From positions 1 to 53,125 of the forward strand of contig CAIRTK010000007.1 in NCBI GenBank assembly GCA_903881475.1: DNA of 53,125 nucleotides, given 5' to 3'. This stretch comes from an uncultured Opitutia bacterium. GTDB taxonomy: Bacteria; Verrucomicrobiota; Verrucomicrobiia; Opitutales; Opitutaceae. A model generated the notes under the pieces. That model was not told the DNA's origin and ran no database searches. It saw nothing but the letters and a program-made list of their open reading frames with translations. The translations under genes were made by a program, and so were the position numbers. Position 1 is the first letter of the stretch, and every line of letters starts with the position of its first letter. Positions 2,456-53,125 of the stretch are shown one piece after another.

Positions 2456-4111
2456 TCAGGGCGCGCTGATATCAGCCGGATCCTTGGGCTTCGGGCGCCA
2501 CACCCGCACCGGGCTGTGGCCGAAGTAGGTGAAATAATCCACCTGCTCAACCTTGTCATAGTTCTTCTTGAGCAGCTCCGGGTCGCAAAAATAAGGGTCG
2601 TCGAACTCCGTCAGCACCATGCCGTAGTTCCGGTTCGCGACCTTCGTCCGGACGTCGGACTCCGTCGCGTTGTACCGCCGGGCCAGCGCCCCGACCATGG
2701 GATCGCGTTCCGCGCGGTTGTCCGAGAACGCGAAGCCGATGAACATCGTGTTGCCGTTGTGCAGCACGTGCCGGCTGTCGCGCTCAAAAATATCCGTCAC
2801 GCACGCGATGCCCAGCACCTCGGCATGGGTGTCGAACACCAGGCGTTCCAACCGGTGGTAGGCCGCGCTCGAATCCGGCACCCCGGGGATATCCATGAAG
2901 AGCGTGACAAAGACGATCAGGATCAGCCCGAAGCCGACCTTGAACCAGCGCCGGCTGGCCGCGTGCGCCGCCAGCAGGAACATGAGCGGGAAAAGCAAAT
3001 GGAGATGGTACGTGAAGTAGGCGCCGGCGTTATGGCCCATGTAGAAGTAGACCAGCGCGAGAAAGATGACGAAGACCGTGCCCATCGCGAGGAAGCGCAG
3101 CTCGTCGCGCCGGGCCTTCTTGTCGATCCGGCCCGTGAGCTTCTCCTGGCGCCGGGCCGCCTGCCGCCGCCAGAGCCACGCCACCAGCCCGCACCCCATC
3201 AGCAGGAAGAACGGCCATCCGCGCTGGAACAGCATGATCGTGTGCATCAGCGAGACGTCCTCCCGCCAGTTCACGATGGCCCCGCCGCGCTGCACGATGA
3301 CCGTCTCGATGTAGTAATACGGGTAGAAATAGCACGAGGCCCAGAAGGTCAGCCCGAGCAGGCCGAAGAATCCCACGCCGAGCCAGCAGGCCGCGCGCCT
3401 GTCGCGCACGATGAAGTGGCACAGCAGCGTCGCACAGCCCGCCAGCGCAAAATAGGATTTGCACTGGAACGCCACCACGGCGCACAGCAGCCCGACGACC
3501 GACGACCCGAGGGTGTAGCCGCGTTCCCACGGCACGTAGAGGCCCAGCAGGAAAAAGCACAGGCCGAGGGTGTCGGGGCGGGCCGTGATCTCGATGTTGC
3601 CCAGGCTCATCCAATAATAAAACACCGCCGACAGCAGCGCGATGCCGAGTCCCGCGCCCGCCTTCTGCATCACGCGCACGATGAGCCAAAGCGAGGCAAA
3701 GAGGAAGATCAGCACGACCATGCGGTGCGCCGGGTAGTCGTCGCCCAGCAGCGGCTTGAGGGCCAGCACCACGTAATTGTAGAGCGGGCCGAAGCAGTAG
3801 GCCGCCCCGGGGAGCTCGGTGATCGTATAGGGATTCCGTCCGTGCTCCAGCAGCCAGGTCGTCTGCCAGATCGCCGGCTCGTTGTATTCCTGCGGACCCG
3901 GCTGGGTGATCATCTTCACATGCGAGAACAGCAGCGGGATGAACCAGCCGATCGCAATGACGATGCCGGCAAAGTTCACGCACCGCACCAGCTGGTCCAC
4001 CGACCGCCGCCGCCACCGTTCCAGCAGCCAGCCGGGAAGACCGTTGAGCATGGCCCGGAACCGGGCCATCGGGCCGGCGGGCGGGGCCTTCTGGTTCCTA
4101 CTTTTCGACAT
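2456..4111 (-). CDS. Polytopic membrane protein, glycosyltransferase-like (GT-C type)
   Basis: A 551-residue integral membrane protein with about 11 hydrophobic segments. A cytoplasmic basic N-terminus is followed by a large loop after the first segment (QPGPQEYNEPAIWQTTWLL, then GRNPYTITELPGAAYCFGPL), as in lipid-linked-sugar glycosyltransferases of the GT39/PMT/ArnT fold. The C-terminal 150 residues are soluble. I cannot name the donor or acceptor; an oligosaccharide- or exopolysaccharide-related role is inference. In-frame starts also exist upstream (GTG 4222); ATG 4111 (MSKSRNQ) is preferred because the upstream extension has low-complexity composition, but this is uncertain. Divergent from the Deg protease gene. 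Confidence 0.7.
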   Translation of the reverse strand: MSKSRNQKAPPAGPMARFRAMLNGLPGWLLERWRRRSVDQLVRCVNFAGIVIAIGWFIPLLFSHVKMITQPGPQEYNEPAIWQTTWLLEHGRNPYTITELPGAAYCFGPLYNYVVLALKPLLGDDYPAHRMVVLIFLFASLWLIVRVMQKAGAGLGIALLSAVFYYWMSLGNIEITARPDTLGLCFFLLGLYVPWERGYTLGSSVVGLLCAVVAFQCKSYFALAGCATLLCHFIVRDRRAACWLGVGFFGLLGLTFWASCYFYPYYYIETVIVQRGGAIVNWREDVSLMHTIMLFQRGWPFFLLMGCGLVAWLWRRQAARRQEKLTGRIDKKARRDELRFLAMGTVFVIFLALVYFYMGHNAGAYFTYHLHLLFPLMFLLAAHAASRRWFKVGFGLILIVFVTLFMDIPGVPDSSAAYHRLERLVFDTHAEVLGIACVTDIFERDSRHVLHNGNTMFIGFAFSDNRAERDPMVGALARRYNATESDVRTKVANRNYGMVLTEFDDPYFCDPELLKKNYDKVEQVDYFTYFGHSPVRVWRPKPKDPADISAP

Positions 4112-4241
4112 GGGCAAGGGAGGGTGGCAAACTCGCCCCCAGTTTCGGGCCGCGCCCGCCTGATGCAATGTCGAATGAGATTGGTCCCAGAGGTCCATCG
4201 CTTTCATGATCCGTTTACCCACTGCAAGGTAACCCGCCGGA

Positions 4242-5861
4242 ATGAAAAAACTGGCCTTAGCCCGGACAGATGCATGCGCTTACCGGCGCATGCATCTGTC
4301 TTCGCTCTTACCCCGCGGACCGGCTACTTGGCTGCTGGCTGCCATTCTCACCGGCATGACCGTCCGCGCCGCCGACGCACCCTCCGGTCCGGGCCCGGCC
4401 ACAAGCCCTTCGGCCAGCGCCGAGGCCAAGCCGGGTTCTGTCGAAAACTCCGTGGTGAAAATCTTCTCCACCATGCGCTACCCCGATCCCTTTCGCCCGT
4501 GGACCAAACAGCCTCCCACCGAAGTGACCGGGTCTGGCGTCGTGATCGAAGGTAACCGCATCCTCACCAACGCGCACGTTGTGCTCTACGCAAGCCAGGT
4601 CCAGGTGCAGGCCAACCAGTCGGGCGACAAGGTGTCGGCCACGGTCGTGGCCATGGCGCCGGGCATCGATCTCGCCGTGCTGAAGCTGGAGGACGAGTCG
4701 TTTTTCGAGAGCCACCCTGCGCTCCCGCGCGCCACCGTCCTGCCCGAAATCAAGGATTCCGTGCTGGCGTACGGCTTTCCCACGGGTGGCAACAGCCTCT
4801 CCATCACCAAGGGCATTGTCTCGCGCATCGAGTTCATGCCATATAATTTCCCAACTTTTGGCCTGCGCATCCAAATCGACGCCGCGATCAACCCCGGGAA
4901 TAGCGGCGGTCCCGCCGTTGCCGGTGACAAGATGATCGGTCTCGCCTTCAGCGTGCTCGGCAATGCCCAGAATATCGGCTATATCATTCCCAACGAGGAA
5001 GTGGAACTGTTCCTGAAGGACATCGCCGACGGCACCTACGATGGAAAGCCGATGATGTACGATGAAACGCAAAAATTCCAGAATCCCTCGCTGCACAGCT
5101 ACCTGAAACTGGGAAAAACCGCCGAAGGCATCCTGGTGCGCCAGCCCTTCGAGCAGTCCGCGGACTATCCCTTGAAAAAATGGGATGTGATCACGCAGAT
5201 CGGCGATGCGCCGGTGGACGACGAAGGCATGATCAAGCTCGGCCCCAATCTGCGCGTGCGATTCGAATACCTTATCCAGAAAATCGCCCGCAACGGCACC
5301 GTCCCCCTGACCGTCTGGCGCGACGGCCGTAAAATCGCCGTTGAGCTACCCGTCTCCAGCACACGCCCGATGCTCGTGCACGATCTGAAGGGAAGCTATC
5401 CGTCGTATTTCGTTTATGGCCCGTTGGTTTTTTCCGAGGTCACCAGCCAGTTCCTCGGCGGCATCAACCGCGATTCGATCGACGGTCTCGCCTTCGGCGG
5501 AAGCCCGCTGGTGGCGCGTAAGGGTGAAAAGCCGGCCTTTCCCGGCGAGCAATTGGTGGTGATTTCCTCCCCTTTCTTCCCGCACAAGCTGGCCAAGGCC
5601 TATTGGCCGCCAACCGGATGGGTCGTGGCCACGGTCAATGGCACGCCGATCAAGAATCTAGCCCATCTCGTGGCGGTGCTGCGCGATTTGCCGGACGAGT
5701 TCGTCGTCTTCGAGTTTGTCGGGCGCGGCGCAGAAACCTTCGTGTTTCCCCGCAAGGAAATGGTCGCGGCCACGGAAGAAATCCTGAACGACAACGGCGT
5801 CCGGGCCCAGGGCTCGCCCGACACCCTCGCCATCTGGAACACCCAGCCGGCAAAAAAATAA
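4242..5861 (+). CDS. HtrA/Deg-type periplasmic serine protease
   Basis: A 539-residue trypsin-like serine protease. The triad is His112 (in TNAHVV), Asp143 (GIDLAVLK) and Ser221 (NPGNSGGP). A signal peptide is present (WLLAAILTGMTVRAADA), followed by a Ser/Pro/Ala linker. After the protease domain (about 65-260) come a PDZ domain (about 275-370) and a second, more divergent PDZ-like region near 440-520. The long C-terminal part resembles plant Deg9-like and other non-DegP Deg proteases more than DegP itself. Likely role: quality control in the envelope. ATG 4242 is used; ATG 4290 (MHLSSLLPRG) also gives a signal peptide and sits in a perfect hairpin. Confidence 0.88.
   Translation: MKKLALARTDACAYRRMHLSSLLPRGPATWLLAAILTGMTVRAADAPSGPGPATSPSASAEAKPGSVENSVVKIFSTMRYPDPFRPWTKQPPTEVTGSGVVIEGNRILTNAHVVLYASQVQVQANQSGDKVSATVVAMAPGIDLAVLKLEDESFFESHPALPRATVLPEIKDSVLAYGFPTGGNSLSITKGIVSRIEFMPYNFPTFGLRIQIDAAINPGNSGGPAVAGDKMIGLAFSVLGNAQNIGYIIPNEEVELFLKDIADGTYDGKPMMYDETQKFQNPSLHSYLKLGKTAEGILVRQPFEQSADYPLKKWDVITQIGDAPVDDEGMIKLGPNLRVRFEYLIQKIARNGTVPLTVWRDGRKIAVELPVSSTRPMLVHDLKGSYPSYFVYGPLVFSEVTSQFLGGINRDSIDGLAFGGSPLVARKGEKPAFPGEQLVVISSPFFPHKLAKAYWPPTGWVVATVNGTPIKNLAHLVAVLRDLPDEFVVFEFVGRGAETFVFPRKEMVAATEEILNDNGVRAQGSPDTLAIWNTQPAKK
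4267..4298 (+). promoter_or_regulatory. Perfect 13-bp hairpin over the alternative start of the Deg protease
   Basis: CAGATGCATGCGC (4267-4279) and GCGCATGCATCTG (4286-4298) are perfect inverted repeats with a 6-base loop. The right arm contains ATG 4290, a possible start of the protease gene. As DNA it could be an operator; as RNA it could hide the start codon. Only the symmetry is seen; the role is inferred. Confidence 0.45.
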
Positions 5862-5924
5862 TTCCCGCCAGCTTCACCGGCGGCCAGTTCATCGGGGACG
5901 TTACAGACCGACCAGGCGCACCGC

Positions 5925-7211
5925 CTAGGCACGCTCCGATTCAATCTGCTCCAGCGATTTGCCCGAGGTGTCGGGCATGAAGCCGAAGCCCACCACGCCG
6001 CTGATCGCGAGGAACAGCGTCAGCAACGCGGCGATTTCCCGGATGCCGGCGTGCGCCAGCACCGGCACGAAAAAGCTCCAGATGCCGAGGAAGGTGCGCG
6101 CCACGCCAAACGTGAAACCCTGCGCCGTGCCGCGCAATCGCGTGGGAAAAAGTTCCTGGCTGAAGACCTTGTAGAAGGCCTCGCCCGCCAGCGCCGAGCC
6201 CACCGCGAACAGTACGATATTGGCCACGACCGACACGATCGTGAACGGGAAGACCAGGAACAGGCCGTAGGCCAGGACCTGCATGATCGCACCGACACCC
6301 CAGATGACCCGGCGGGTGCGGAAATCACCGTCCGCGTACTTCATGAAGACTGTCACGGTGACAATCATGGTGACCGCGAAGTTGGCGCTGGAGAGGCCGA
6401 CACTCATGGCCTGGCCGCCGGCGTGGAGCGTACTGATGATGTAGGGGTTGAAGATCCCCGCCGTGCCGGCCGCGATGTTCCAGAAGAGATAGATCGTCGC
6501 GGTCCAGACCAGCGCCTTGAGGTTCGAGCCGCGGAACAACTCCGCCATGCTGCCCAGCGCGCCCTTGGCCGACTTGGCGGCTTCCTGCCAGCGCGCGGAC
6601 TCGGCCAGCCCGCGGCGCAGCGCCCAGGTCACGATCGCGACCACGAACAGGTGCAGGAAGACAATGCGGATCCCGAGCAGTCCCCACGGCGCCAAGGCCA
6701 GGGCCATCCACAGGACCACCACCGGGCCGAGGCACCAGGCGACCTGGGTGAAGCCGAGCAGCTTCCCGCGCGCCTTCGCCGGGGCGAATTCGCCCACCAG
6801 CGCCAGCGAGGTCGGCACGTCCGCTCCCACCGCCACGCCCACAATGAAGGTGCCGGCGAACAGCATGGTTGCATTGACCGCCAGCGCGATCAGCAGGATA
6901 CCGAACGCATAGACCATCAGGTCATATTGGTAGATGCGTTTCCGGCCGAGTTTGTCGCCGAGCCAGCCGCCGAGAAATGCCCCGAGCGCACAACCGAGCG
7001 CATTGGGGCCGATGGCCGCGAGCACGCCCACGGTGCCGTCCGTCAGGCCGAATTCCTTCTGCAGGATCGCGAGTCCCGCCCCGAGGGCGACAATGGAGCC
7101 GGCATCGAGGTAGGACGCCATACCCGCAAGCGCGGACCATTTCCATTGCTGGCGGGTGATGGAGGAGGAGTCGCCCGGAGTGTCAGCGGCGAGAGGGGTG
7201 TTCGGGCTCAC
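5925..7211 (-). CDS. MFS permease (sugar/organic-acid type), GTG start
   Basis: A 428-residue protein with 12 predicted membrane segments and the MFS motif A loop between helices 2 and 3 (GGWLGDKLGRKR). A second conserved stretch (ADVPTSLALVGEFAPAKARG) is typical of the sugar and aromatic-acid branches. It begins at GTG 7211, 60 bp downstream of the adenine deaminase gene on the same strand, so the two are probably cotranscribed. A purine or nucleoside substrate is therefore possible, but the family does not fix the substrate. It converges on the Deg protease gene. Confidence 0.82.
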   Translation of the reverse strand: MSPNTPLAADTPGDSSSITRQQWKWSALAGMASYLDAGSIVALGAGLAILQKEFGLTDGTVGVLAAIGPNALGCALGAFLGGWLGDKLGRKRIYQYDLMVYAFGILLIALAVNATMLFAGTFIVGVAVGADVPTSLALVGEFAPAKARGKLLGFTQVAWCLGPVVVLWMALALAPWGLLGIRIVFLHLFVVAIVTWALRRGLAESARWQEAAKSAKGALGSMAELFRGSNLKALVWTATIYLFWNIAAGTAGIFNPYIISTLHAGGQAMSVGLSSANFAVTMIVTVTVFMKYADGDFRTRRVIWGVGAIMQVLAYGLFLVFPFTIVSVVANIVLFAVGSALAGEAFYKVFSQELFPTRLRGTAQGFTFGVARTFLGIWSFFVPVLAHAGIREIAALLTLFLAISGVVGFGFMPDTSGKSLEQIESERA

Positions 7212-7271
7212 GCAGGGTGAATGAAGCTGGGTTGGGGTGCAGTTTCAGCGGGGTATGCAGCAAAGAAAGCC

Positions 7272-8918
7272 TCATCCCACGCAATTATCCATCAGCGGTT
7301 GAAACGCCCAGTTCGTCCCGGAAAACAGCCCGCGATCGCTGAGCTTCAGATCCGGAATGACCAGCAGCGCCATGAAGGACAGCGTCATGAAGGGCGCGTC
7401 GAGCCGCGACCCCAGCTGCTTGGCCAGCGCATCGAGCGCCGTGTAGCGCCGCGCCACCGTGCGGCCGTCCTTGTCGGACATCAGGCCGGCAATCGGCAGC
7501 GGCAAAACGGCCCGGCGGCCCGGACCGACCGCACTGATTCCGCCGTGATGCGCGATGACCAGATTGACCGCCGCCGCGATCGAGGCGTCATCCGCACCCA
7601 CGGCGACGATGTTGTGCGAATCGTGCGCAACCGACGATGCCAGGGCTCCGTCCCGCAGCCCGAATCCCCGGATAAACCCGACGGCCACCGGCGCCCGCGG
7701 CGCATAACGGTTGACCACGGCGATCTTCAGCAGGTCCCGGCCGGGGTCGGCGACCGCGCAGCCGTCCACGACCTTGGCCCGCAGCCGCAGGGCGCGGGTG
7801 ATGAGCTGGCCGTTCAGCGCATCGATGATATTCAATTTTCCCGAACCTGCCCTTACGGCAAAGTCCTCCGCCCGCCGCGGCCGGGCGCGAAATTGATTCA
7901 CCACCCGGGCTCGCTGCCGCGGCAACAGGCTCCGCCCCTGCCGGGCCACCAGCCGGCCCGCGATCCAGGTGCGCCGCACACGGAAATTCCGCCAGCTGTC
8001 CACCTCGATGAAATCCGCCGGATCGCCCTCGCGCAGCAGGCCGACGGCAAGGCCATAGTGCCGCACCGGGTTGGCCGACGCACAGGCCAGCACGTCGAAG
8101 CGGTTCGCGCCGAGCGCGAGCGCCCGCCGCACGTGCTCGTCAAGATGCCGCACCATCAGCAGGTCGGGGTGCAGGTCGTCGCAGCAGAACATGCAGTTCA
8201 TGGGATCCGTTTTAAGGAGCGGCGCCAGCGCGGCAAAATTCCGCGCGGCCGAGCCTTCCCGGATGAGAATCTGCATGCCCGCGGCTAGCTTGTCCTTCGC
8301 CTCGGCGAGCGTGAAGCACTCGTGGTCGGTCGTGATGCCCGCGGCGGCATAGCGCTCGGCCAGCTGGCCGCGCAAGCCGGGCGCGTGGCCGTCCACCGGC
8401 TTGCCGGCCCGCTTCGCCGCCGCAATCATCGCGAGCAGCGCGGGATCACCGTTCAGCACGCCGGGAAAATTCATCACCTCGGCGAGGAATTTCACGTCCG
8501 GCAGCGCCAGCAGCTTCGCCACCGCGCGGGCATCCAGCGCCGCGCCCGCCGTCTCGAACGTCGTGGCCGGCACGCAGGACGGCACCCCGAAGTTGAACTT
8601 GAACGGCGACCGGCGACCGTCGGCGATCATGTAACGAACTCCCGCCGCCCCGAGGACATTGGCGATCTCGTGCGGGTCGGACACCGTCGCCACCGTGCCA
8701 TGCACCACGGCATGCCGGGCAAACTCCACCGGCGGCAGCATCGAGCTCTCAATGTGGATATGCGCATCGACCAGCCCGGGCATGAGCAGATGAGGGCCGC
8801 GGACCCGGGCATCGCGGACGATCCGCCGGATGATTCCGGCCGCCACCTCGATCGTGCCCGGAAATTCCGTGCGGTTAAGCACATCGACGATTCGGCCGGA
8901 GATGCGTTGGACGGTCAT
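7272..8918 (-). CDS. ade: Adenine deaminase
   Basis: A 548-residue amidohydrolase of the Ade family (COG1001), which converts adenine to hypoxanthine and ammonia in purine salvage. The metal site starts with MPGLVDAHIHIESSML (His53 and His55). Other family blocks are TVATVSDPHEIANV, GHAPGLRG, DHECFTLAEA, and CCDDLHPDLL in the catalytic core. The C-terminal domain has VAHDSHNIVAVG and HHGGI, characteristic of Ade rather than other amidohydrolases. ATG 8918 (MTVQRISGRI) gives the normal N-terminal beta domain; a longer in-frame extension to 8996 reads through a repeat and is rejected. Leads a likely operon with the MFS permease. Confidence 0.93.
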   Translation of the reverse strand: MTVQRISGRIVDVLNRTEFPGTIEVAAGIIRRIVRDARVRGPHLLMPGLVDAHIHIESSMLPPVEFARHAVVHGTVATVSDPHEIANVLGAAGVRYMIADGRRSPFKFNFGVPSCVPATTFETAGAALDARAVAKLLALPDVKFLAEVMNFPGVLNGDPALLAMIAAAKRAGKPVDGHAPGLRGQLAERYAAAGITTDHECFTLAEAKDKLAAGMQILIREGSAARNFAALAPLLKTDPMNCMFCCDDLHPDLLMVRHLDEHVRRALALGANRFDVLACASANPVRHYGLAVGLLREGDPADFIEVDSWRNFRVRRTWIAGRLVARQGRSLLPRQRARVVNQFRARPRRAEDFAVRAGSGKLNIIDALNGQLITRALRLRAKVVDGCAVADPGRDLLKIAVVNRYAPRAPVAVGFIRGFGLRDGALASSVAHDSHNIVAVGADDASIAAAVNLVIAHHGGISAVGPGRRAVLPLPIAGLMSDKDGRTVARRYTALDALAKQLGSRLDAPFMTLSFMALLVIPDLKLSDRGLFSGTNWAFQPLMDNCVG

Positions 8919-11559: not shown

Positions 11560-11788
11560 CCCGGCGACCTTGACCGCCCGTGGTCCGACTTTCGAGCCGC
11601 AATCGCACGGCTTGCCAAAAGCCTCGCGGCCGTTTCACTGCGGCCGGCGATGGATTCCGCCCTCCCGCAAGGGTAAACCGCCCCGCCGCCGCGGGGCTGA
11701 TGACTCCTGTTAAACTCAACTCCTAACAGGCCATGTCATATATCCCGACTCATTTCCTCAAACCCACGCCCGATGGGCGCCGCCGCGC

Positions 11789-42568: not shown

Positions 42569-45500
42569 ATGTTGAAACATACCCGTCTGCTCGGCGCGCT
42601 CCTCGCGTGCCTCCTCGTCAAACTCACGGCGGCCGATCCCACCGCCGGCGTCGCACCGACCAAGCTGCTCCGCTTCCCCGCCACCAACGGCACCGCGATC
42701 GTCTTCTCTTACGCCGGCCAGCTCTACACAGTCCCCGCCGAAGGCGGCACCGCCCGCCGCCTGACCGACGGCCCCGGCTACGCCATCTTTCCGCACTTCT
42801 CCGCCGATGGCACCCAGCTGGCCTTCACCGCCCAGTATGACGGCAACACCGAGGTTTACGTGATGCCCGCCGAGGGCGGCGTGCCCAAGCGCCTCACCAC
42901 CTCCGCCACGCTCGACCGGGACGACCTCGCCGACCGCATGGGCCCGAACAACCTCGTCATGGGCTGGAAAAACACCTCCAACGAGGTCGTCTTCCGCTCC
43001 CGCTGGCGCTCGTTCAACCCGTTCCTCGGCGAACTCGATACCGTCGGCCTTGATGGCGACGTCCCCACCCAGCTCCCCGTGCCGCGCGGCGGCTTCGTCT
43101 CCTTTTCCCCCGACGACACCAAGATCGCCTACAACCGCGTCTTCCGGGAGTTCCGCACCTGGAAACAGTACCGCGGCGGCATGGCCGACGATATCTGGAT
43201 TTTCGACCTGAAGACGGGCGCACTGGAAAACATCACGAACAACCCGGCCCAGGACATCTTCCCGATGTGGGCGCCCAACGGGAAAATCTATTTTGTCTCC
43301 GAACGCACCCAGCGCGCCAACCTCTTCAGCTACGACCTCGCCACCAAGCAGACGAAGCAGCTGACCAGCTTTGACCGCTACGACGTCAAGTTCCCGTCGC
43401 TCGGCAAGGGCGCCATCGTGTTCGAGCAGGCCGGCCAGGTCTGGAGGTTCGACCTCGCCACCGAGAAGGCTGCGCCCGTGCCGATCGTCGTGCGCGAGGA
43501 TTTCGCCGCCGCCCGCCCGGTCCTCACCAACGTCTCCCACTTCATCGAGGGCGTGCAGCCCTCGCCCGACGGCCAGCGCGTCACCGTCGTCGCCCGCGGC
43601 GACGTGTTCACCGTGCCCGCCAAGGACGGCCCCACCCGCAATCTCACCCAGACGCCCGGGGTGCACGAGCGCGCCGCCAGCTGGTCACCCGACGGCCGCC
43701 TGATCGCCTACCTCTCCGACGCCACCGGTGAGTTCGAACTCTACGTCCGCCCGCAGGATGGCAAGGGTGCCGCAACCCAGCTCACCTTCGACGACGACAC
43801 CTATCCCTTCACGCCGGTCTGGTCGCCCAACTCGAAGAAGCTCCTCTGGTCAGACCGCAAGCAACGCCTGCGCTTCGTCGACCTCGAGACCAAGGCGGTC
43901 ACGGTCGTGGCCGAGGATCCCGACTCCCCCATCCAAGAGTACGCCTGGGCGCCGGATTCGCAGTGGATCACTTACGTCCGCCAAGAACATGGCACCCTCG
44001 CCAAGGTGATGCTCTATGGCCTCGCCTCCAAGCAGACGCTCGCCGTCACCGACGGCTGGTATGCCTCCAGCGCCCCGGTGTTCAGCGACGACGGCAAGTG
44101 GCTGCTCTTCGCCTCCGCCCGCGATTACCGCCCCATCTACTCCGACACCGAATGGAACCACGCCTACCAGGACATGGAACGCATTTACCTGGTCGCGCTC
44201 TCCAAGGACACCGCCTCGCCCTTTGCCCCGAAGAGCGACGAGGTCGCCATCGCGAAAGACGAGGATGCGGCCCCGAAATCCGACGGCGAGAAAGCCGACC
44301 CCGCCAAGGCGGATGAGCCCAAGCCCGAGAAGAGGGAATCCAGAAAGCACGTCGTGGTGAAGGTGGACGCCGACGGCCTCGCCGACCGGGTCATCAGCCT
44401 GCCCATCACCCCCTCCAACTACGGACCGATCCGCATGATCGGCGACAAGGTTTACTACCGCCGTGCACCCGGCGGCCCCATCACGGGCGGCGGGGGTGGC
44501 GAGGGCTTCGGCGGCGCCAGCAACAGCCGCGCGATGGTCGCGCTCTATGATCTCAAGGCCCGGAAGGAAACCGAGCTCGGTAATTTCGACCGCTTCGAGA
44601 TCACGGCCAACGGCAAGAAGATGCTCGTCCGCCTCGGCCACGACTACTCGCTCATCGAGCTCCCCGTCGCCAAGGTCGAGCTCAAGCCCGACGCCAAGCT
44701 CGATTTCTCCGCCCTGGAGGTCCAGCTCGACCACCATGCCGAGTGGACGCAGGTCTTCAACGAGAGCTGGCGCCAGATGCGCGACTTTTTCTACGCGCCG
44801 AACATGCATGGCATCGACTGGGCCGGTCAGCGCGACAAATACGGCGCCCTGCTGCCCTACGTGAACACGCGCAACGATCTCACCTACTTGATCGGCGAGA
44901 TGATCGGCGAGCTCCACATCGGCCACACCTATGTTACTCCCGGCGACCGCCCGGAAGCCCCGCGCGTCCGCACTGGTCTGCTCGGCGCCCAGGTCTCCCG
45001 CGACGCGGTCAGCCGCGCCTACCGCATCGACAAAATCCTTCCCGGTGAAAACTGGCAGAACCGGACGCATTCGCCGCTCACCGAGATCGGCGTCAATGTG
45101 AAAGCCGGCGACTACATCCTCGCCGTCAATGGCCATTCCGTCCGCGACCTGGCGAACATCTATTCCGCCCTGATCGACACCGTGGGCAAGCAGGTCGTCC
45201 TGCGGGTCAACTCCCAGCCGGTGGAAGAAGGCGCCCGCGACATCACCATCGTGCCGATCGGTGACGAGGCCCCGCTGTACTATGATGCCTGGGTGCAGCA
45301 CAACATCGACTACGTCGCCAGCAAGACCGGCGGCAAGGTCGGCTACCTCCACATTCCCGACATGGGCCCGGAAGGTCTCAATGAGTTCGTCCGCCGCTAC
45401 TATCCGCAGCTCGACAAGCAGGCGCTCATCATCGACGTGCGTGGGAACGGCGGTGGCAATGTCTCGCCCATGATCATCGAGCGCCTCCAGCGCGAACTCA

Positions 45501-45949
45501 CGATGATCAACATCCGGCGCAACGGCACGCCCACACCCAACCCGGCGCAGACCATGCTCGGGCCCAAGGTCACGCTGCTCAACGAGTACTCCGCCTCCGA
45601 CGGCGACCTGTTCCCGTACCGCTTCCGGGAAAACGGCCTCGGCAAGCTCATCGGCAAGCGCTCGTGGGGCGGTGTGGTCGGCATCGCCGGCACCCTGCCC
45701 TTCACGGATGGCGGCGGGCTCACCAAACCCGAGTTCGCGCCCTATTCCAAGGACGGCAAGACCTGGATCATCGAGGGCCACGGCGTCGATCCCGACATTG
45801 TGGTCGACAACGATCCCGCCCGGGAATTCCGCGGGGAGGACCAACAGCTCGACAAGGGCATTGAGGTCATCCTCGAGGAGCTGAAGACCCAGGCTCAGAC
45901 CCTGCCGCCCCCGCCCCCGTGGCCGGACAAGTCGAAAATCCAGCCGTGA
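42569..45949 (+). CDS. Tricorn-type protease (S41), exported
   Basis: A 1126-residue protein with signal peptide (LLGALLACLLVKLTAADP). Order: a WD40-like beta-propeller of TolB/tricorn repeats (about 35-330, with RFPATNGTAIVFSYAGQLYT and repeated FSADGTQLAF-type units), a second propeller (about 340-650), core domain C1 (about 700-790) with His786 in GELHIGHTYV, a PDZ domain (about 800-890, GVNVKAGDYILAVNGHSV), and the C2 catalytic domain with the nucleophile Ser1010 in NEYSASDGD. Tricorn degrades peptides released by upstream proteases; here it is probably periplasmic. A charged linker (KADEPKPEKRESRKH) sits near 590-600. ATG 42569 begins the signal peptide. Confidence 0.92.
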   Translation: MLKHTRLLGALLACLLVKLTAADPTAGVAPTKLLRFPATNGTAIVFSYAGQLYTVPAEGGTARRLTDGPGYAIFPHFSADGTQLAFTAQYDGNTEVYVMPAEGGVPKRLTTSATLDRDDLADRMGPNNLVMGWKNTSNEVVFRSRWRSFNPFLGELDTVGLDGDVPTQLPVPRGGFVSFSPDDTKIAYNRVFREFRTWKQYRGGMADDIWIFDLKTGALENITNNPAQDIFPMWAPNGKIYFVSERTQRANLFSYDLATKQTKQLTSFDRYDVKFPSLGKGAIVFEQAGQVWRFDLATEKAAPVPIVVREDFAAARPVLTNVSHFIEGVQPSPDGQRVTVVARGDVFTVPAKDGPTRNLTQTPGVHERAASWSPDGRLIAYLSDATGEFELYVRPQDGKGAATQLTFDDDTYPFTPVWSPNSKKLLWSDRKQRLRFVDLETKAVTVVAEDPDSPIQEYAWAPDSQWITYVRQEHGTLAKVMLYGLASKQTLAVTDGWYASSAPVFSDDGKWLLFASARDYRPIYSDTEWNHAYQDMERIYLVALSKDTASPFAPKSDEVAIAKDEDAAPKSDGEKADPAKADEPKPEKRESRKHVVVKVDADGLADRVISLPITPSNYGPIRMIGDKVYYRRAPGGPITGGGGGEGFGGASNSRAMVALYDLKARKETELGNFDRFEITANGKKMLVRLGHDYSLIELPVAKVELKPDAKLDFSALEVQLDHHAEWTQVFNESWRQMRDFFYAPNMHGIDWAGQRDKYGALLPYVNTRNDLTYLIGEMIGELHIGHTYVTPGDRPEAPRVRTGLLGAQVSRDAVSRAYRIDKILPGENWQNRTHSPLTEIGVNVKAGDYILAVNGHSVRDLANIYSALIDTVGKQVVLRVNSQPVEEGARDITIVPIGDEAPLYYDAWVQHNIDYVASKTGGKVGYLHIPDMGPEGLNEFVRRYYPQLDKQALIIDVRGNGGGNVSPMIIERLQRELTMINIRRNGTPTPNPAQTMLGPKVTLLNEYSASDGDLFPYRFRENGLGKLIGKRSWGGVVGIAGTLPFTDGGGLTKPEFAPYSKDGKTWIIEGHGVDPDIVVDNDPAREFRGEDQQLDKGIEVILEELKTQAQTLPPPPPWPDKSKIQP

Positions 45950-45982
45950 GTGGCACGGTTAGGAAACCGTGATGCCAGATTC

Positions 45983-46015
45983 AAGGCCCCGGAGAAATCC
46001 GGGGCCTTTGCTTTT
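45983..46015 (+). terminator. Rho-independent terminator of the tricorn gene
   Basis: Perfect 11-bp stem (AAGGCCCCGGA / TCCGGGGCCTT) with a GAAA loop, then TGCTTTT, 33 bp after the tricorn stop. On the other strand the T-run is weaker, but it may also help stop the convergent kinase transcript, whose gene ends at 46060. A second small dyad (CACGGTT...AACCGTG, 45954-45970) lies just upstream. Confidence 0.85.
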
Positions 46016-46059: not shown

Positions 46060-48819
46060 TCAGGCTTTTCCCGCGGGATGGAGCAGCCTGTGCACGGTTT
46101 TCAGCAGATCGTCGGCCTTGAAGGGCTTCCGCAGGAAGACATGGACGAGTTTCTCGACTTCCTGGACTTCCAAGTCATCTGACTCGCTGTGATCCAGTCC
46201 GCTCATGGCGATGAGCCGGATATCAGGCCTTATCTGCAAGAGGGCGCGGACCAGTACCGCGCCGCCGACATAGGGCATGTTGATGTCCGTGATGACCAGT
46301 ACCAGCTTGTCGGATTGCGTGGCAAACAGGGCGATCGCCTCCACCCCATCCTTGCAACTCACGACCCGGTAGCCGTGATTGACCAGCACCTTGGCGACAA
46401 TTTCGCGGATCGAAGTGTCATCGTCCACCACCAGGATGAGCTCGCCCGCGCCGTCAGGGATGACGAAGGGCGACGCGGTGCCGGGCGGGCCTGATTCGCT
46501 GTCGGCCGCGGGCAGAAACAGCCGGAAGACGCTGCCCCGGCCGACTTCCGTATGCAGCTCGATGAAGCCTTGGTGGCTGGCGACCAATCCCTGCACCGTG
46601 GAAAGTCCCAGCCCGGTGCCCTTGCCGACGGCCTTGGTGGTGAAGAAAGGCTCCCAGATGCGCACGAGAATCTCCGGCGGGATCCCCGTGCCCGTGTCGG
46701 CGATCTCAATCACGATCCAGGGACCGGGCCGCGCCCCGGCGATGGCCCCGGCCTCGACCGCATCAAGCCGCCGGTTCCGGGCCGTCAGACGGAGCGTGCC
46801 ACCCTGCGGCATGGAGTCGCGCGCATTGATGCAGAGGTTAAGCAGCATCTGGTGGATCTGCGTCGCGTTGCCGAATACCGGCCAGAGGTCCGTCGGGATT
46901 GTAGGCTCGAGCTGGATCGACTTCGGGAAGGTCTGCTCGATCACGCTGACAATATCGCGGGCCAGGTGCTTCACCTGGGTGAGGTGGAGCTCGCTCGTGC
47001 CCGTGTGCGCAAAGCCCAGAATCTGTTTCACCAGCCCGGCCCCGCGGGCCGCGCTTTGCTCGAGCGTCGCCAGCACTTTCAGATCCTGCGGGTTCGACAG
47101 GCTGCGGCGCAGCAGCGGCGCCACGAACATGATCGGGGCCAGCACGTTGTTGAGGTCGTGCGCAATGCCCGCGGCCAGCAGGCCGATGCTCTCCAACCGC
47201 TGCGCATGGAGAAATTTCTCCTCCAACAGCTTCTTTTCCGTGATGTCCGTCGCGATCACCAGCCGGGCAGGCCGGCCGTCGTACTCCAGCGAGCGGGCCA
47301 TGACCTCGACGTGGATCATGGAGCCGTCCTTCCGCCGGTGCCGCCATTCCCGCATCTTCAACGGCCCGCCAACAGCCTCATCCAGGGCCTTCATCAGCAT
47401 CGCGACGTCCTCCCCGGGATGAAACCGCGTGGTGCTCATCGCGGCGAGCTCTTCGCGCGTGTAGCCGTAGTGCTGCACGACCGAGTCGTTGACGGCGAGA
47501 AAGCGCAGCGTCTCCCGGTCATAGAGCCACATCGGCAGCGGATTGTTCTCGAAGAGCAGCCGGTACCGTTCCTCGCTCAGGCGCAGCACTTCCTCCGCCC
47601 GCTTGCTCTCGGTCAGGTCCAGCTTGATCGCGATGAAATGCGTGATCACACCGGCGGCGTCGCGCACCGGCGTGATGGTCTGCTCCTCCGGATACAGGCT
47701 GCCATCCTTGCGGCGGTTTACCATCTCGCCATGCCACACACGGCCGGCAAGGATCGTGGTCCAGAGATCATGATAAAGCGGGGCCTGATGCTGGCCGGAC
47801 TTGACCAGATCCCGGGGGTTTTTCCCGACCGCCTCCGCCAGCGTGTAGCCGGTCAGCGTCGCGAAGGCCGGGTTCACCCAGACGATGACCCCATCGCGGT
47901 CCGTGATGACGATGGCATTGGCCGCAGCGGTCAGCGCGGCGCCTTGCAGCCGCAGAACCGACTCCGCCCGGACGCGCTCCACTGCTTCCCGCCGCAGGGC
48001 CTCGTTTGCCGCCCGCAGCGCTTCGGTGCGTTGCTTGACCCGGAGGTCCAGCTCGCCCTGCACCAAGCGCGCAGCCGCGTCCATCTGCCGGTAGAAGGTG
48101 ATTTCCCGATCCGAATCGCGCCAGCGCCGGTAGGCAAAGACCAGCAAGCCCGCCCCCAGGAAGATGAGGGTCAGGACCAGTTCATCCACATCCAGCCGCG
48201 CGACGCCCTGCAGGCCCAGGATCCAGCCGGCCAGCGCGGCGAACCAGTGGAACCGGGAGCCCAGGCCGTAGAAGCCCAGGCTGAGGGCGACCACCACGGC
48301 GAATTCGGCCAGCACCCGGAAACGCCGGCGGCGAAAGGTCCGGCTCATGGCCACGGCGGCCTCCTCCTGCGCCCGTTTGCGCCCCGTGATATCGGTCAGG
48401 GTCCCTTCGTGGTGAACCACGCCGGATTCATCCCGGGTGGCCTGGATGTCGCTGGAAACCCAGACCAGACTGCCGTCCCGGCGGCGGAGCCGGAACTCAA
48501 AGTCCACCACGACGCCGTGCTCGTTCAATTCACGAAGCAATTCATCCCGGCGGCCCTTGTCGGCATAGCGCTCCGCGATGTTCGGCGTCATCTGCATCAG
48601 CTCCTTCACCGATTCAAAACCGAGGATCTGTGCGACCGCCGGGTTTGCCGTGACGATCTTTCCGTCCAGCGTGGTCTGCAGGACCCCGGCCCGCGCATTA
48701 TCCACAATCCGCTGGTATCTGGACTCGGCCGCGTTTCGGTCAGGCAGTTTCAAAGCCTGAAGCCCGTCGGTCACAACAGGATCGTTCTGCCTGATTCCGC
48801 CTTCAGGCTCGTTGCTCAA
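46060..48819 (-). CDS. Hybrid PAS histidine kinase with C-terminal receiver
   Basis: A 919-residue sensor kinase. Order: PAS 1 (about 30-155), two or three membrane helices (about 165-240), coiled coil, PAS 2 (about 285-405, DRDGVIVWVNPAFATLTGYT), PAS 3 (about 410-535), HisKA with phospho-acceptor His554 in GIAHDLNNVLAP, HATPase (NARDSMPQGG, IADTGTGIPPE, GKGTGLGLSTVQG) and a receiver (about 790-915) with acceptor Asp845 (VITDINMP) and Lys in FLRKPFKAD. No output domain, so it must pass the phosphate on or regulate itself. Start is TTG 48819; the first ATG inside PAS 1 would break the domain. No partner regulator is adjacent. Confidence 0.9.
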   Translation of the reverse strand: MSNEPEGGIRQNDPVVTDGLQALKLPDRNAAESRYQRIVDNARAGVLQTTLDGKIVTANPAVAQILGFESVKELMQMTPNIAERYADKGRRDELLRELNEHGVVVDFEFRLRRRDGSLVWVSSDIQATRDESGVVHHEGTLTDITGRKRAQEEAAVAMSRTFRRRRFRVLAEFAVVVALSLGFYGLGSRFHWFAALAGWILGLQGVARLDVDELVLTLIFLGAGLLVFAYRRWRDSDREITFYRQMDAAARLVQGELDLRVKQRTEALRAANEALRREAVERVRAESVLRLQGAALTAAANAIVITDRDGVIVWVNPAFATLTGYTLAEAVGKNPRDLVKSGQHQAPLYHDLWTTILAGRVWHGEMVNRRKDGSLYPEEQTITPVRDAAGVITHFIAIKLDLTESKRAEEVLRLSEERYRLLFENNPLPMWLYDRETLRFLAVNDSVVQHYGYTREELAAMSTTRFHPGEDVAMLMKALDEAVGGPLKMREWRHRRKDGSMIHVEVMARSLEYDGRPARLVIATDITEKKLLEEKFLHAQRLESIGLLAAGIAHDLNNVLAPIMFVAPLLRRSLSNPQDLKVLATLEQSAARGAGLVKQILGFAHTGTSELHLTQVKHLARDIVSVIEQTFPKSIQLEPTIPTDLWPVFGNATQIHQMLLNLCINARDSMPQGGTLRLTARNRRLDAVEAGAIAGARPGPWIVIEIADTGTGIPPEILVRIWEPFFTTKAVGKGTGLGLSTVQGLVASHQGFIELHTEVGRGSVFRLFLPAADSESGPPGTASPFVIPDGAGELILVVDDDTSIREIVAKVLVNHGYRVVSCKDGVEAIALFATQSDKLVLVITDINMPYVGGAVLVRALLQIRPDIRLIAMSGLDHSESDDLEVQEVEKLVHVFLRKPFKADDLLKTVHRLLHPAGKA

Positions 48820-48958: not shown

Positions 48959-49293
48959 TCAAGCCGCCACCTTGCGCAGCCAGATCTGCCCGCCGCCACC
49001 CATGGCGCACCGGGGCATGTGCTCGCGAAACCAATCGGGGCGCATCCGAAACAGCCACGAGGGGAAAAGCTCCACGCGGAAGGCCCGGTTATACATCAGG
49101 AAGGCCCGCAGGAGATATTGCTCGTTCCAAGCCCGGCCTTCTTCCAACCAGTCGCGCGGATACTCGAAGTTGCCCGCAATGTCATGGATAACGGAGTCGA
49201 AAACAGGAAAAACGTGAAGAATGGGTGTTTATGCCAGCGATCAATGCCCGCCCCGCTGGCCAGTTGGTCTTTGCAGTCGAGTTGCACGCTCAA
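48959..49293 (-). pseudogene. Hypothetical third gene of the island module, frameshifted
   Basis: Two short frames appear to form one protein of about 110 residues. Frame one starts at TTG 49293 (MSVQLDCKDQLASGAGID, then RWHKHPFFTFFLF) and overlaps the nucleotidyltransferase stop (TTGA). Frame two continues as DSVIHDIAGNFEYPRDWLEE, GRAWNEQYLLRAFLMYNRAF, RVELFPSWLFRMRPDWF and GGGGQIWLRKVAA, stopping at 48959. A one-base loss near 49195-49215 would explain the shift; an upstream TAA in frame two shows the crossing must lie there. I do not recognise the family. The rich Trp/Phe/Arg content is unlike the antisense shadows elsewhere. Moderately sure it is or was a gene. Confidence 0.5.
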
Positions 49294-49982
49294 CCCAGTG
49301 CCACGATGGCCTGGAGCTTTCTACGCAGCGCCGGGAGGCGTTGCTGGCTGGCTTGGTCGGGCGGAATCTGTCCCGGCAACGCCTCATCAAACTGCCGCGT
49401 GGCGATAAGCGACCGCACCGCGCCGATCACATAGGCCCGCAATTCGGCGGGAGCTTGGTTCACATCGGCCACGATGCCCGCACGGCCATCAATCACCGTT
49501 ACGAAGTCCTCCAAATCGTGGCTGGCGTAGTAGTCCCCGCCGCCTCGGTCGGAGAAGGCAATGTGCTTTGTCGCGAGAAACGCGACCGGAGAGATAAGTT
49601 TGAGCCGGACGTGCCCGAACTCGCGCTCGGTTGCCGTAGCCAGCGCTTCCGCGAACCACGCGGTGTTGAGTCCGAGAAACCCGCCCTCGGTCGGCATGAT
49701 GTCCACGGTGAGATTGCCGAGCACCCACCGGCACTTCGGCGCTTTCTCGCGCATATCATGATCGAAGCCGAGGCTGCGCAGCTTCGCTTCGACATCGGAG
49801 TAGCGCTGCGCGGTTACAGCTTCGAGAATGACGTCGAAATCGTCGGTCGGACGCGCGGGCGAAAACGCGGGATTATCCAACAACAGGTTCACGATAGACC
49901 CGCCGACGAAGGCATAGTCCAGACCGAGACTGTCAAGACGGTCGGCGACCGCGCGCAGGGCACTGAGATTAGGCTGCGACAT
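49290..49982 (-). CDS. Nucleotidyltransferase, AbiEii/DUF6036-like
   Basis: A 230-residue protein with the minimal nucleotidyltransferase core: GG(S) motif in YAFVGGSIVNLLL (Gly27-Ser29) and the metal-binding pair in PTDDFDVILE (Asp48 and Asp50), then VDIMPTEGGF as the third acidic strand. KHIAFSDRGGGDYYASHDLED is typical of AbiEii-type enzymes. AbiEii toxins modify tRNA or other targets and are held in check by a partner, so this is the likely toxin of the pair. It overlaps the winged-helix gene by 14 bp and the third gene by four. GC content looks lower than in the rest of the window, in line with acquisition. Confidence 0.82.
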   Translation of the reverse strand: MSQPNLSALRAVADRLDSLGLDYAFVGGSIVNLLLDNPAFSPARPTDDFDVILEAVTAQRYSDVEAKLRSLGFDHDMREKAPKCRWVLGNLTVDIMPTEGGFLGLNTAWFAEALATATEREFGHVRLKLISPVAFLATKHIAFSDRGGGDYYASHDLEDFVTVIDGRAGIVADVNQAPAELRAYVIGAVRSLIATRQFDEALPGQIPPDQASQQRLPALRRKLQAIVALG

Positions 49983-50487
49983 GGACGTTCAGGCGTTGCG
50001 TGATTTCTTTTTCCGCCAGACTGCGTTCGCGTGCCCGACCGATGCGGAGGGCATCAACCAAGGCGAGCAAATCGTAAAGTGCTGGATCGCGTCGCGCAGC
50101 GCCAGGCACACTGCTATAGAGGGGCTGCACAGCGGCCCCTTGCACCTGTCCATCCGGGTCCGGCCAGACGGGAGGAATCTGTTCCGACGCGCTGATTTTG
50201 CCGGACAGCACCGGAGCCGCCCAAGCAGTGGGCATCCCACGGGTGACTTCCTTGGGGCTGGCCGGAAAGGCATGGGGCACCCCATGGATGAGAAAATTGC
50301 GGAGCGCTTCCCGCCGGATTTCCCGGGTTTCGGGATCGACCAAGCGAGCTTCGCCTAGCCGGCGCACGGCGGCATGGACTTCGGAGGCGCTCATCCCTAG
50401 TTCTTGGCCCAATTCGGCATAGCTCCGCCGGGCTCCTTCGAGGCAGAGCTTGAGAGCGACAACGATATCCTGTGGCTTGGTGAACAT
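49969..50487 (-). CDS. Winged-helix protein, putative antitoxin/regulator
   Basis: A 172-residue protein with an N-terminal winged helix-turn-helix (RRSYAELGQELGMSASEVHA, AAVRRLGEARLVDPETREIR; about 20-65). It is followed by a region with FLIHGVPHAFPASPKEVTRG and a C-terminal helical part (about 135-172). Winged-helix proteins paired with nucleotidyltransferases are the antitoxin/repressor half of AbiE-like systems. ATG 50487 lies 11 bp from a perfect 12-bp palindrome (50498-50509), fitting autoregulation. The gene overlaps the nucleotidyltransferase start by 14 bp. Confidence 0.8.
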   Translation of the reverse strand: MFTKPQDIVVALKLCLEGARRSYAELGQELGMSASEVHAAVRRLGEARLVDPETREIRREALRNFLIHGVPHAFPASPKEVTRGMPTAWAAPVLSGKISASEQIPPVWPDPDGQVQGAAVQPLYSSVPGAARRDPALYDLLALVDALRIGRARERSLAEKEITQRLNVHVAA

Positions 50488-50509: not shown

Positions 50510-50716
50510 GCGAACGGTCAAGCTTCATCATACTTGAGACCTCCCGTTGGCGGCGCTGGAGAACGCATTCTGGCCTATATCTTTGCGGCCATCCCTTTTG
50601 CTGTGGAGGGGGCTGGTTGGCTTGGCGGGTGGGCTCGGTGAGTGTCGCCGGTGCTCCGCGCGCCGATCCCTACGGCGCTTTGCCACGGCGCGCGGCCCCG
50701 AACGCCGCCGCGCCTA

Positions 50717-50748: not shown

Positions 50749-52806
50749 TCACGGGGAGATTTTAACCCGGTTCGTTTCCGGGGCGGGATGCCGCATGAAC
50801 GCCTCGTGCAAACGCGACCGCTCGGATGCAGCCATGGCCCGGCGTGACCACTCCGGCAGGCGTTGGCGCATTCCGCGCAGGACGAATGACTCCGCCGCCG
50901 GTCGCTTCATTTCCAAGGCGAGTCCACGGTCGCCGCTTTGCTCGATACTAGCACGAAGCTCGGCTTTGTTTTCCGTGAAAACGAGGACCCGTTTCCGGCC
51001 GCGCGAGATGGCGACATACCACTGGTTACCATTGGTCGCAGCGCGGCAGCCCGCGTCCGCCACCAGCACGGTGTCCACGGTCTTGCCCTGCGAAGCATAG
51101 GACGTGACCGCGTAGCCGCGATTGAAGAATCGCTGTTGCGGCGAAAGCGTCTTCACCGTGAGACGGTCATCTTCAATCGTCACCGAGCCATCGGCGGCGA
51201 CATCGCGCACCGTCACGAGTTCGCCGTTAGCAATGGCGAGCCCCTCCTTGGATTTGCCATTGAACTTGAGTTGCAGCCGGTCGCCGGGGGCGATGTCGGT
51301 CTCATGCTCGACGGCGATGGCCAGCCGGTGGGTGTGGCCGTAGCTCATGGTAGAACGCCGACCATCCTTGATGAGCACGACGCCCTGTTCATTGGTCCCG
51401 ACGATGGGGCAAATATCGCCCTTGGCATACCGGCCATAGCGTTTGATGACGTAGGCGAACTGGCCGGGTTGATAGAACCGGCCATCTCGCTTCTGCGCTT
51501 CGTCGAGATCGACCCCTTGGTAGGTCTTCAACGTGACGCCCAAGCCGATTCGCCCGACCGCTTTGATTTCCGCCCGGATCGCTTCGTTCAAGGCGTTCAC
51601 CTCGTTCCAAGTTTGGGCCACGACCAGCGGGCGTTCCTTGCGGTCAAGACTGGCGATGTATTCTCGGGCCAGTATGGCCCGTCGATCACCCGGCGCGACT
51701 TCGCGGATGCACCCCAACCGGTCCAGGCCATCGAAGGACTCGGCAATGTGCCCGGATGCCGCCGCTTTTACCGCCCGGCGGTAGTCCGCTACATATTGCC
51801 GATCCTGCGCCGTCTTTGCTCTCGCCGGGTCTTGGCGACGAATGTCCCGCAGGACGGCCGGCTTTAAACCACTGAATTCCTCGATGGCGCGCATAGCGTC
51901 CGAAGCCTGCACGGCACCATGCTGCCGGGTGTCACCCGAGAGGAGCAATCGGCCGTTGTGCGTTTTTACCAATGCCACCAGTGCGGCCAATTGCTTCCCG
52001 CCAATCTGACCGGACTCATCCACCAGCACCACCGCCCGCGACGGCAGGGTTTGGTTCTGGAGGCACAGCGACAGGGTTGAGGCCGGTAGCCCATCGGCGC
52101 AGAGGTCGGCGACCTGCTGGCGCTGTGGGGCCAGCACGACCACGGGATGGCCGGCGGCCTTGAGGCCGTTTGTCACTTCCCGGAGGGTGAAACTTTTGCC
52201 CGTGCCGGCGCTGCCTCGAAACAGGGTGATGAAATCCCGGCTTTTGAGAATCTGTTTCACCGCCACCGCCTGCTCTCCCGACAGGTTGGCCGCCGGCTGG
52301 TAGTTCTCACTGAGGGGACATTGCTGCCCACGGCCGTCATGGGCGGCGACAGTGATGCCGGGGAAATGCTTCTTCAGCGCCTTCATGTGCCGGTTGATCG
52401 TCGTGAGCTGAGACGCCGAAATGAGCTTCTGCTCATGCTCCCTCGTTTTTACCACGAGGTAGGCCGCGACCGCCTCATCCAGCGCTTTCTGGTTTTCAGG
52501 TGTGCGGTGGTTGGTCAGGGCGTAATCGACGCAGAAGGACAGCGTGCGACTGCCGCCGGCCAGCCGCCGGAAAACGGCCTCGGCCTCGCGGACTTGATCC
52601 TCGGCGAGGCAGGTGGTGACGGCGCTTAGGCTCGATGCCAGTTGCAGCGCCTTGAGTTCAAGGACGCTCTTTTCGGCGGCAGCCTCCTCCTGACTCTTGA
52701 AGTTGCGGCGGATGCGGACGCCGTTGAGCTGGCCATCGACGCGGAACGAGAACACGCCGTTCCGGTTCTTAAACCGGCTGACAGCAAACATAGGTTGGAC
52801 ATTCAT
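50749..52806 (-). CDS. Fusion of tyrosine-integrase N-terminal region and MobF-type SF1 helicase
   Basis: A 685-residue protein. Residues 1-155 match the arm-binding and core-binding region of verrucomicrobial tyrosine recombinases (MFAVSRFKNRNGVFSFRVDG, LNGVRIRRNFKSQEEAAAEK, SFCVDYALTNHRTPENQKAL); the recombinase catalytic domain is absent. Residues 165-685 are a RecD/TraI-like SF1 helicase as found C-terminal in MobF relaxases: Walker A GSAGTGKS (198-205), Walker B VVLVDESGQ (259-267), motif III LLLSGDTRQ (287-295), RRQDP, motif V GYAVTSYASQGKTVD (564-578), motif VI WYVAISRGRKRV (596-607). The relaxase His/Tyr domain is absent. It starts at ATG 52806, 64 bp from tRNA-Ser. Confidence 0.83.
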   Translation of the reverse strand: MNVQPMFAVSRFKNRNGVFSFRVDGQLNGVRIRRNFKSQEEAAAEKSVLELKALQLASSLSAVTTCLAEDQVREAEAVFRRLAGGSRTLSFCVDYALTNHRTPENQKALDEAVAAYLVVKTREHEQKLISASQLTTINRHMKALKKHFPGITVAAHDGRGQQCPLSENYQPAANLSGEQAVAVKQILKSRDFITLFRGSAGTGKSFTLREVTNGLKAAGHPVVVLAPQRQQVADLCADGLPASTLSLCLQNQTLPSRAVVLVDESGQIGGKQLAALVALVKTHNGRLLLSGDTRQHGAVQASDAMRAIEEFSGLKPAVLRDIRRQDPARAKTAQDRQYVADYRRAVKAAASGHIAESFDGLDRLGCIREVAPGDRRAILAREYIASLDRKERPLVVAQTWNEVNALNEAIRAEIKAVGRIGLGVTLKTYQGVDLDEAQKRDGRFYQPGQFAYVIKRYGRYAKGDICPIVGTNEQGVVLIKDGRRSTMSYGHTHRLAIAVEHETDIAPGDRLQLKFNGKSKEGLAIANGELVTVRDVAADGSVTIEDDRLTVKTLSPQQRFFNRGYAVTSYASQGKTVDTVLVADAGCRAATNGNQWYVAISRGRKRVLVFTENKAELRASIEQSGDRGLALEMKRPAAESFVLRGMRQRLPEWSRRAMAASERSRLHEAFMRHPAPETNRVKISP

Positions 52807-52959: not shown

Positions 52960-53094
52960 GTTCAGGAACGTGAAAACGTAGGCTTCACCGTCGAAAACGG
53001 AAGCAGAAAAACTGGATGAAATTAGCTTTGACGTGATTCCGGAAATTCGAGCCGCTTGAAGAGTTGGTCTGGGCCAATAAAAAGGACCCAGATC

Positions 53095-53125
53095 ATGAAA
53101 GGAAAAAGATTCAGTACGGAGGAGA
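53095..53125 (+). CDS. Start of a putative IS3-type transposase OrfA (cut by window end)
   Basis: Only ten codons are visible: MKGKRFSTEE. This start is typical of IS3-family OrfA proteins (MK-x-KRFS-x-E). The preceding bases hold a short dyad (TCTGGGCC/GGACCCAGA, 53068-53092) that may be part of the element's end. Too short for certainty. Confidence 0.45.
   Translation, partial: MKGKRFSTEE

Follow-up and report, generated by a model that had tools for sequence, protein, structure and literature searches.

A probable deletion scar joining integrase and relaxase helicase parts of a decayed mobilizable element at tRNA-Ser in an Opitutaceae genome

The stretch of DNA analysed here (53,125 nucleotides, the window) carries the remains of what is very probably a decayed integrative mobilizable element at tRNA-Ser, and a long reading frame in it is best read as the scar of a deletion that by chance kept the reading phase. 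This minus-strand frame (52806..50749, 685 codons, zero internal stops in the translation) consists of residues 1 to ~153 of a tyrosine integrase followed by the helicase half of a MobF (TrwC-type) relaxase. Decay of a tRNA-borne element can thus yield a long, clean two-domain frame, in which gene callers and readers could wrongly see a novel fusion; setting it beside the undeleted pair of neighbouring genes resolves the case.

Organization of the Fused Frame

The coordinates of the features are listed in Table 1. The start codon of the frame lies 63 bp downstream of tRNA-Ser(CGA) on the same strand. Residues 1–154 are 98% and 94% identical to the integrase starts of related loci L012 and L013, respectively, and residues 1–155 are 97% identical to those of genomes G272 (carrying L005) and G339 (carrying L012). 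Residues 1–154/155 have no integrase match in Pfam, and the integrase profile has no match among solved structures up to E 5. Intact copies of the integrase are 401–406 aa long (406 aa each in L005 and L011) and show a weak Phage_integrase match at residues 217–302 (1.6e-4 to 2.3e-4, below the Pfam cut-off).

Table 1. Features at the tRNA-Ser end of the window
Feature	Position	Strand	Remarks
tRNA-Ser (anticodon CGA), integration target	52959-52870	-	presumed attL core: the 3'-terminal 25 bases (52894-52870)
Tyrosine integrase, 5' part: codons 1 to ~153, catalytic C-terminus missing	52344..52806	-	DNA identity to L005 and L011
Probable deletion junction	52344..52350	-	about residues 150-155; short run common to both genes of relatives
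MobF relaxase, 3' part: SF1 helicase half, TrwC nicking domain missing	50749..52350	-	DNA identity to L005 and L011
Non-coding tail behind the relaxase, common to L005	50583..50748	-	homology stops at 50583
Two-gene pair like PADLOC PDC-M21A/B	49290..50487	-	4.8e-45 (PDC-M21A), 3.2e-48 (PDC-M21B)
3' remnant of a methyltransferase gene, residues 286-359 of 361	48968..49189	-	far edge of the element remnant

The second part of the frame matches Pfam AAA_30 (residues 175–370, 8.3e-35), TraA_Ti, which is the helicase part of Ti-type TraA relaxases (residues 168–614, 2e-34, far below the cut-off of that model for whole relaxases), and TraI among solved structures (1.5e-20). Its helicase motifs GSAGTGKS (198), VDES (262), GDTRQ (291) and VAISR (598) place Walker A, Walker B and further motifs in order, as is characteristic of SF1 (RecD-like) helicases. 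A MobF relaxase combines an N-terminal TrwC HUH nicking domain with a C-terminal SF1 helicase; here the helicase alone is found.

A preliminary description of this DNA had claimed one uninterrupted frame at 50749-52806 with an integrase front, a helicase back, both catalytic parts missing and tRNA-Ser adjoining, and all of this is borne out: the frame encodes 685 aa without a stop, its front matches integrase starts at 97–98%, its back matches AAA_30 and TraA_Ti, and neither the C-terminal integrase part nor the TrwC domain is present. The same description proposed to check whether homologues also adjoin tRNA genes. They do at the loci compared: counting the window itself, the spacing between tRNA and start codon is 63 bp in five of the five loci compared, the others being L005, L011, L012 and L013.

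Undeleted Gene Order in Related Loci

Two related loci retain both genes undeleted and in one direction. In L005, tRNA-Ser(CGA) (2869-2956) is followed by the integrase (3020-4240) and the relaxase (4855-7617; TrwC 11–297, AAA_30 415–611); in L011, tRNA-Ser(GGA) (2459-2548) is followed by the integrase (2612-3832) and the relaxase (from 4444 to the contig end). The nearest described relatives of this type of relaxase are TraA/TraI/TrwC; the helicase half in the window is 89–94% identical to it, although the window lacks the nicking domain.

The window aligns with each of these loci in two blocks. The first, which includes the tRNA end, covers 618 bp at 93.2% (L005) or 92.1% (L011) identity; the second covers 1771 bp at 88.7% (L005, continuing beyond the relaxase stop) or 589 bp at 91.7% (L011, to the contig end). 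Between the blocks the window lacks 2558 bp relative to L005 and 2555 bp relative to L011. At 52344 the identity flips within a single 20-base bin, from 18–19 of 20 bases in the integrase register to 18–19 of 20 in the relaxase register. At this point the integrase and relaxase genes of L011 have TCGCCG (6 bp) in common and those of L005 have 4 bp; runs of at least 6 bases occur at 0.23% of all integrase–relaxase position pairs in L011, and runs of at least 4 bases at 2.2% in L005.

The gene-order survey comprised 23 loci, of which 16 are distinct and seven are repeats. Both genes are present at six distinct loci, the relaxase only at four, the integrase or a piece of it at five, and neither at one. 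The integrase stands behind tRNA-Ser in the direction of the relaxase in L005, L008 and L011, and the two genes are on opposite strands in L078, L079 and L080. Since only part of the 16 loci has the co-oriented pair, the ancestral order does exist but is not kept everywhere. Among the searched genomes, no direct ancestor of the window turned up. The comparison brings to view a set of tRNA-Ser elements with integrase and MobF relaxase in Opitutales-type Verrucomicrobia, the integrases of which are often broken.

Broken integrases of the same kind recur behind tRNA genes. They were found at 18 distinct loci (22 entered), two of which run into a contig end; at the other 16 the integrase homology ends at residues 157–332, in 7/16 at 157–184. 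No conclusion is drawn from this clustering because the loci were chosen for short frames. The junction sequences differ among the seven loci compared beside the intact one.

Proposed Origin of the Fusion

The ancestral element would have been integrated in the 3' end of tRNA-Ser(CGA), with tRNA-Ser, integrase, a short gap and the MobF relaxase arranged in one direction. One internal deletion of ~2.56 kb would then have removed the DNA from integrase codon ~153 to the end of the relaxase nicking domain and linker, fusing the genes in frame, for which the chance is one in three. Joining probably took place via short homology. A second loss would have taken the far attachment site together with the 5' part of a methyltransferase gene. 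We infer the single event, the mechanism of joining and the order of events. Since integrase and relaxase are co-oriented neighbours in L005 and L011, a single internal deletion suffices for the fusion. The preliminary description had also considered a chance fusion by recombination between an integrase gene and a relaxase gene; that caveat holds up, and unrelated genes need not have exchanged DNA. The joining of two different elements is likewise unneeded, as the two halves and the tail all find their counterparts in one pair of relatives.

No TrwC domain was detected in the whole genome (3.2 Mb, estimated 99.9% complete), and the E. coli control was detected. The element cannot integrate or excise alone because no recombinase catalytic part is left, and it cannot start transfer because the TrwC domain is missing. 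If translation begins at the intact start of the integrase, the fused protein would presumably have no selected role; it may be translated and may still be an active helicase.

Occurrence of the Fusion in Other Genomes

Within the order, a search with the whole protein finds matches of E 1e-20 or lower in 69 of 372 genomes (one genome per species), with up to three candidates scored per genome. The sole match over residues 1–685 belongs to the window's own genome; other matches cover the first ~155 residues or begin at ~136–177. A match in G202 (49–635, 32%) crosses the junction and was rejected, its 987-aa frame being a whole relaxase without an integrase part, which corresponds to the L005 relaxase over 19–876. 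Within the family, again with one genome per species, 98 of 252 genomes match a 141-residue query spanning the junction, and among the best matches, which are those listed, only the window's genome (G000) covers residues 1–141. A conserved family of integrase–helicase fusions was therefore rejected: among the matches scored or listed, the fusion occurs in one genome of 372 in the order and one of 252 in the family, in each case that of the window.

The whole protein has matches in at least 5000 plasmid records; identity is below 60% throughout, and nine of the records cover 80% or more of it. The 153-aa integrase part alone has no plasmid match. A plasmid-borne fusion was rejected on this ground and on inspection of H9, an IS3-interrupted mobF region, which is the one of the nine high-coverage records among the 15 matches listed and the one looked at. 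Viral contigs gave no match to the protein. No report of such a fusion was found in the parts consulted of the literature on integrase–relaxase-helicase fusions, Opitutaceae elements and Verrucomicrobia with MobF.

Weighing of Alternative Explanations

The preliminary description had proposed a site-specific DNA-binding module on a motor that could act in attachment-site remodelling, excision, replication or defence. Such a functional chimera, in which the N-terminal DNA-binding part of the integrase would take the SF1 helicase to the attachment site, is very unlikely. It could draw on the open frame with intact helicase motifs, on the 63-bp spacing kept in all five loci compared, on a candidate defence pair 0.26 kb downstream and on the fact that relaxed selection is not visible. 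The dN/dS ratio is 0.04–0.15 for the integrase part of the window (0.065–0.19 for intact pairs) and 0.075–0.13 for the helicase part (0.126 for the intact pair); silent and replacing codon changes private to each sequence number 22:4 in the window, 24:6 in L011 and 30:14 in L005. By these measures neither half of the frame shows relaxed selection. The ratios fit a recent deletion and a maintained gene alike, because both predict such values. Against the chimera, the fusion occurs in one genome only among those searched, so that the proposed search for homologues with the same fusion point speaks against it; the undeleted ancestor accounts for every part; no attR was found in the window; and the genome has no TrwC domain.

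The structure prediction of the junction, also proposed in the preliminary description, is of low confidence (mean pLDDT 43.6 for the fusion and 42.3 for the intact integrase, both too low to base fold searches on) and does not favour the chimera either. Four helices are predicted for residues 103–197 of the intact integrase (model pLDDT 42), a stretch which we take to be the core-binding domain, and the junction falls behind the second of them. Because this presumed domain is cut, the models make it improbable that a site-specific binding module is left whole; the three strands and helix at the front of the intact integrase (residues 7–64) are predicted better. A bolder proposal is that the deletion product is translated from the start codon of the integrase and was kept as a newly born guard derived from the element, beside the candidate defence pair; its integrase-derived DNA-binding part would direct a processive helicase to attachment sites at tRNA-Ser and block or alter the integration of related elements. 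This is very improbable.

An assembly artefact, i.e., two real places wrongly joined in a metagenome-style assembly, could be suspected, since the assembly is in 83 contigs and the contig ends 43 bases past the start of a repeat beside the tRNA. The common run at the junction is, however, just 4–6 bp long, and usual assembler overlaps are far longer. Both blocks are arranged and oriented as in the intact element, and the genome has no other copy of the missing parts: with the L011 relaxase (589 aa) as query, the window locus is the sole place found, from residue 391 on, and integrase residues from 155 onward match other integrases only, with identities of up to 62%. We consider such an artefact very unlikely.

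Other pieces in the same genome comprise a relaxase piece on contig C66 (60%, 251-aa frame) and integrase pieces on contigs C22 (342-aa frame) and C81 (124-aa frame). In a 7.9-Mb genome of the family (G520:C1 and C2), 15 matches to the relaxase helicase region are present among the matches listed, and therefore many MobF elements would reside in one chromosome.

Far End of the Element and Chromosomal Flank

The 25-base tRNA end is repeated with one mismatch in L012 (8386), 2.5 kb away, and in L013 (9430), 3.5 kb away, and this repeat appears to mark the far attachment site. A second copy of the core is absent from the window, with up to 6 mismatches allowed, and also from the available part of L005. 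In another genome of the genus (G260, locus L061), tRNA-Ser(CGA) has a whole 361-aa methyltransferase gene (PF13578, 1.1e-11) beside it, and the DNA on the far side of this gene aligns to window 43321-46015 at 90%. Among the eight tRNA-Ser(CGA) loci of the genus that were fetched, L061 alone is co-linear on both sides. As no attR copy is found and the methyltransferase is cut to residues 286–359, the second loss probably took attR and the front of this gene. In L064 and L065 a piece of the left flank is reversed with respect to the tRNA, and L061 lacks the histidine-kinase gene of the window (46060-48819); the site has therefore changed more than once.

The PDC-M21-like pair encodes proteins of 172 aa, with an AsnC-type HTH, and 230 aa. 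It resembles a regulator paired with a nucleotidyltransferase-like protein (weak DUF2204 match) and is a candidate defence system. No match to it was found in the related loci tested. Since it lies between the element tail and the chromosome, it is possibly cargo.

Relation to Known Mobile Elements

The consulted part of the literature (review PMC5704250) describes integrative mobilizable elements (IMEs) that carry a tyrosine integrase and sit in tRNA 3' ends. It also describes how they decay into cis-mobilizable elements (CIMEs), which have lost integration and transfer genes and kept attL and attR. Compared with the classes as given there, the element resembles an IME in its tRNA 3' end target, in the integrase directly behind it, in the MobF-type relaxase and in that no transfer apparatus is seen adjoining in L005/L011. 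It differs in that neither key gene in the window is intact and just one of the two attachment sites is found, which makes it a remnant: codons 1 to ~153 of about 406 remain of the integrase, and the matching C-terminal part is absent from the genome; the genome has no TrwC match either; and attL is present in the window without a second 25-base core, with up to 6 mismatches allowed. The loss of integrase and relaxase function with retention of attL resembles a CIME, but the two attachment sites of a CIME are not found in the window, attR being the one missing, and at the far edge a chromosomal gene is cut short. On the description available, the remnant is best read as one step beyond CIME decay, in that it has lost an attachment site as well.

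In L012 (5848-8410, the same place as L044/L071), two copies of the tRNA-Ser end enclose a 2.5-kb element; its integrase is truncated at codon 170, and antiparallel to this lies the gene of a 411-aa serine recombinase with Resolvase and Recombinase domains. At the end of the window, a repeat of ~98 bases (53027-53125) is 99–100% identical at seven other places in the genome, six of which lie no more than 44 bases from the start of a contig, and ~82–88% similar in three further species of this genus; it is probably the end of a transposable element where contigs break. A fluoride riboswitch (RF01734, 47.3 bits) is located at window 11637-11716.
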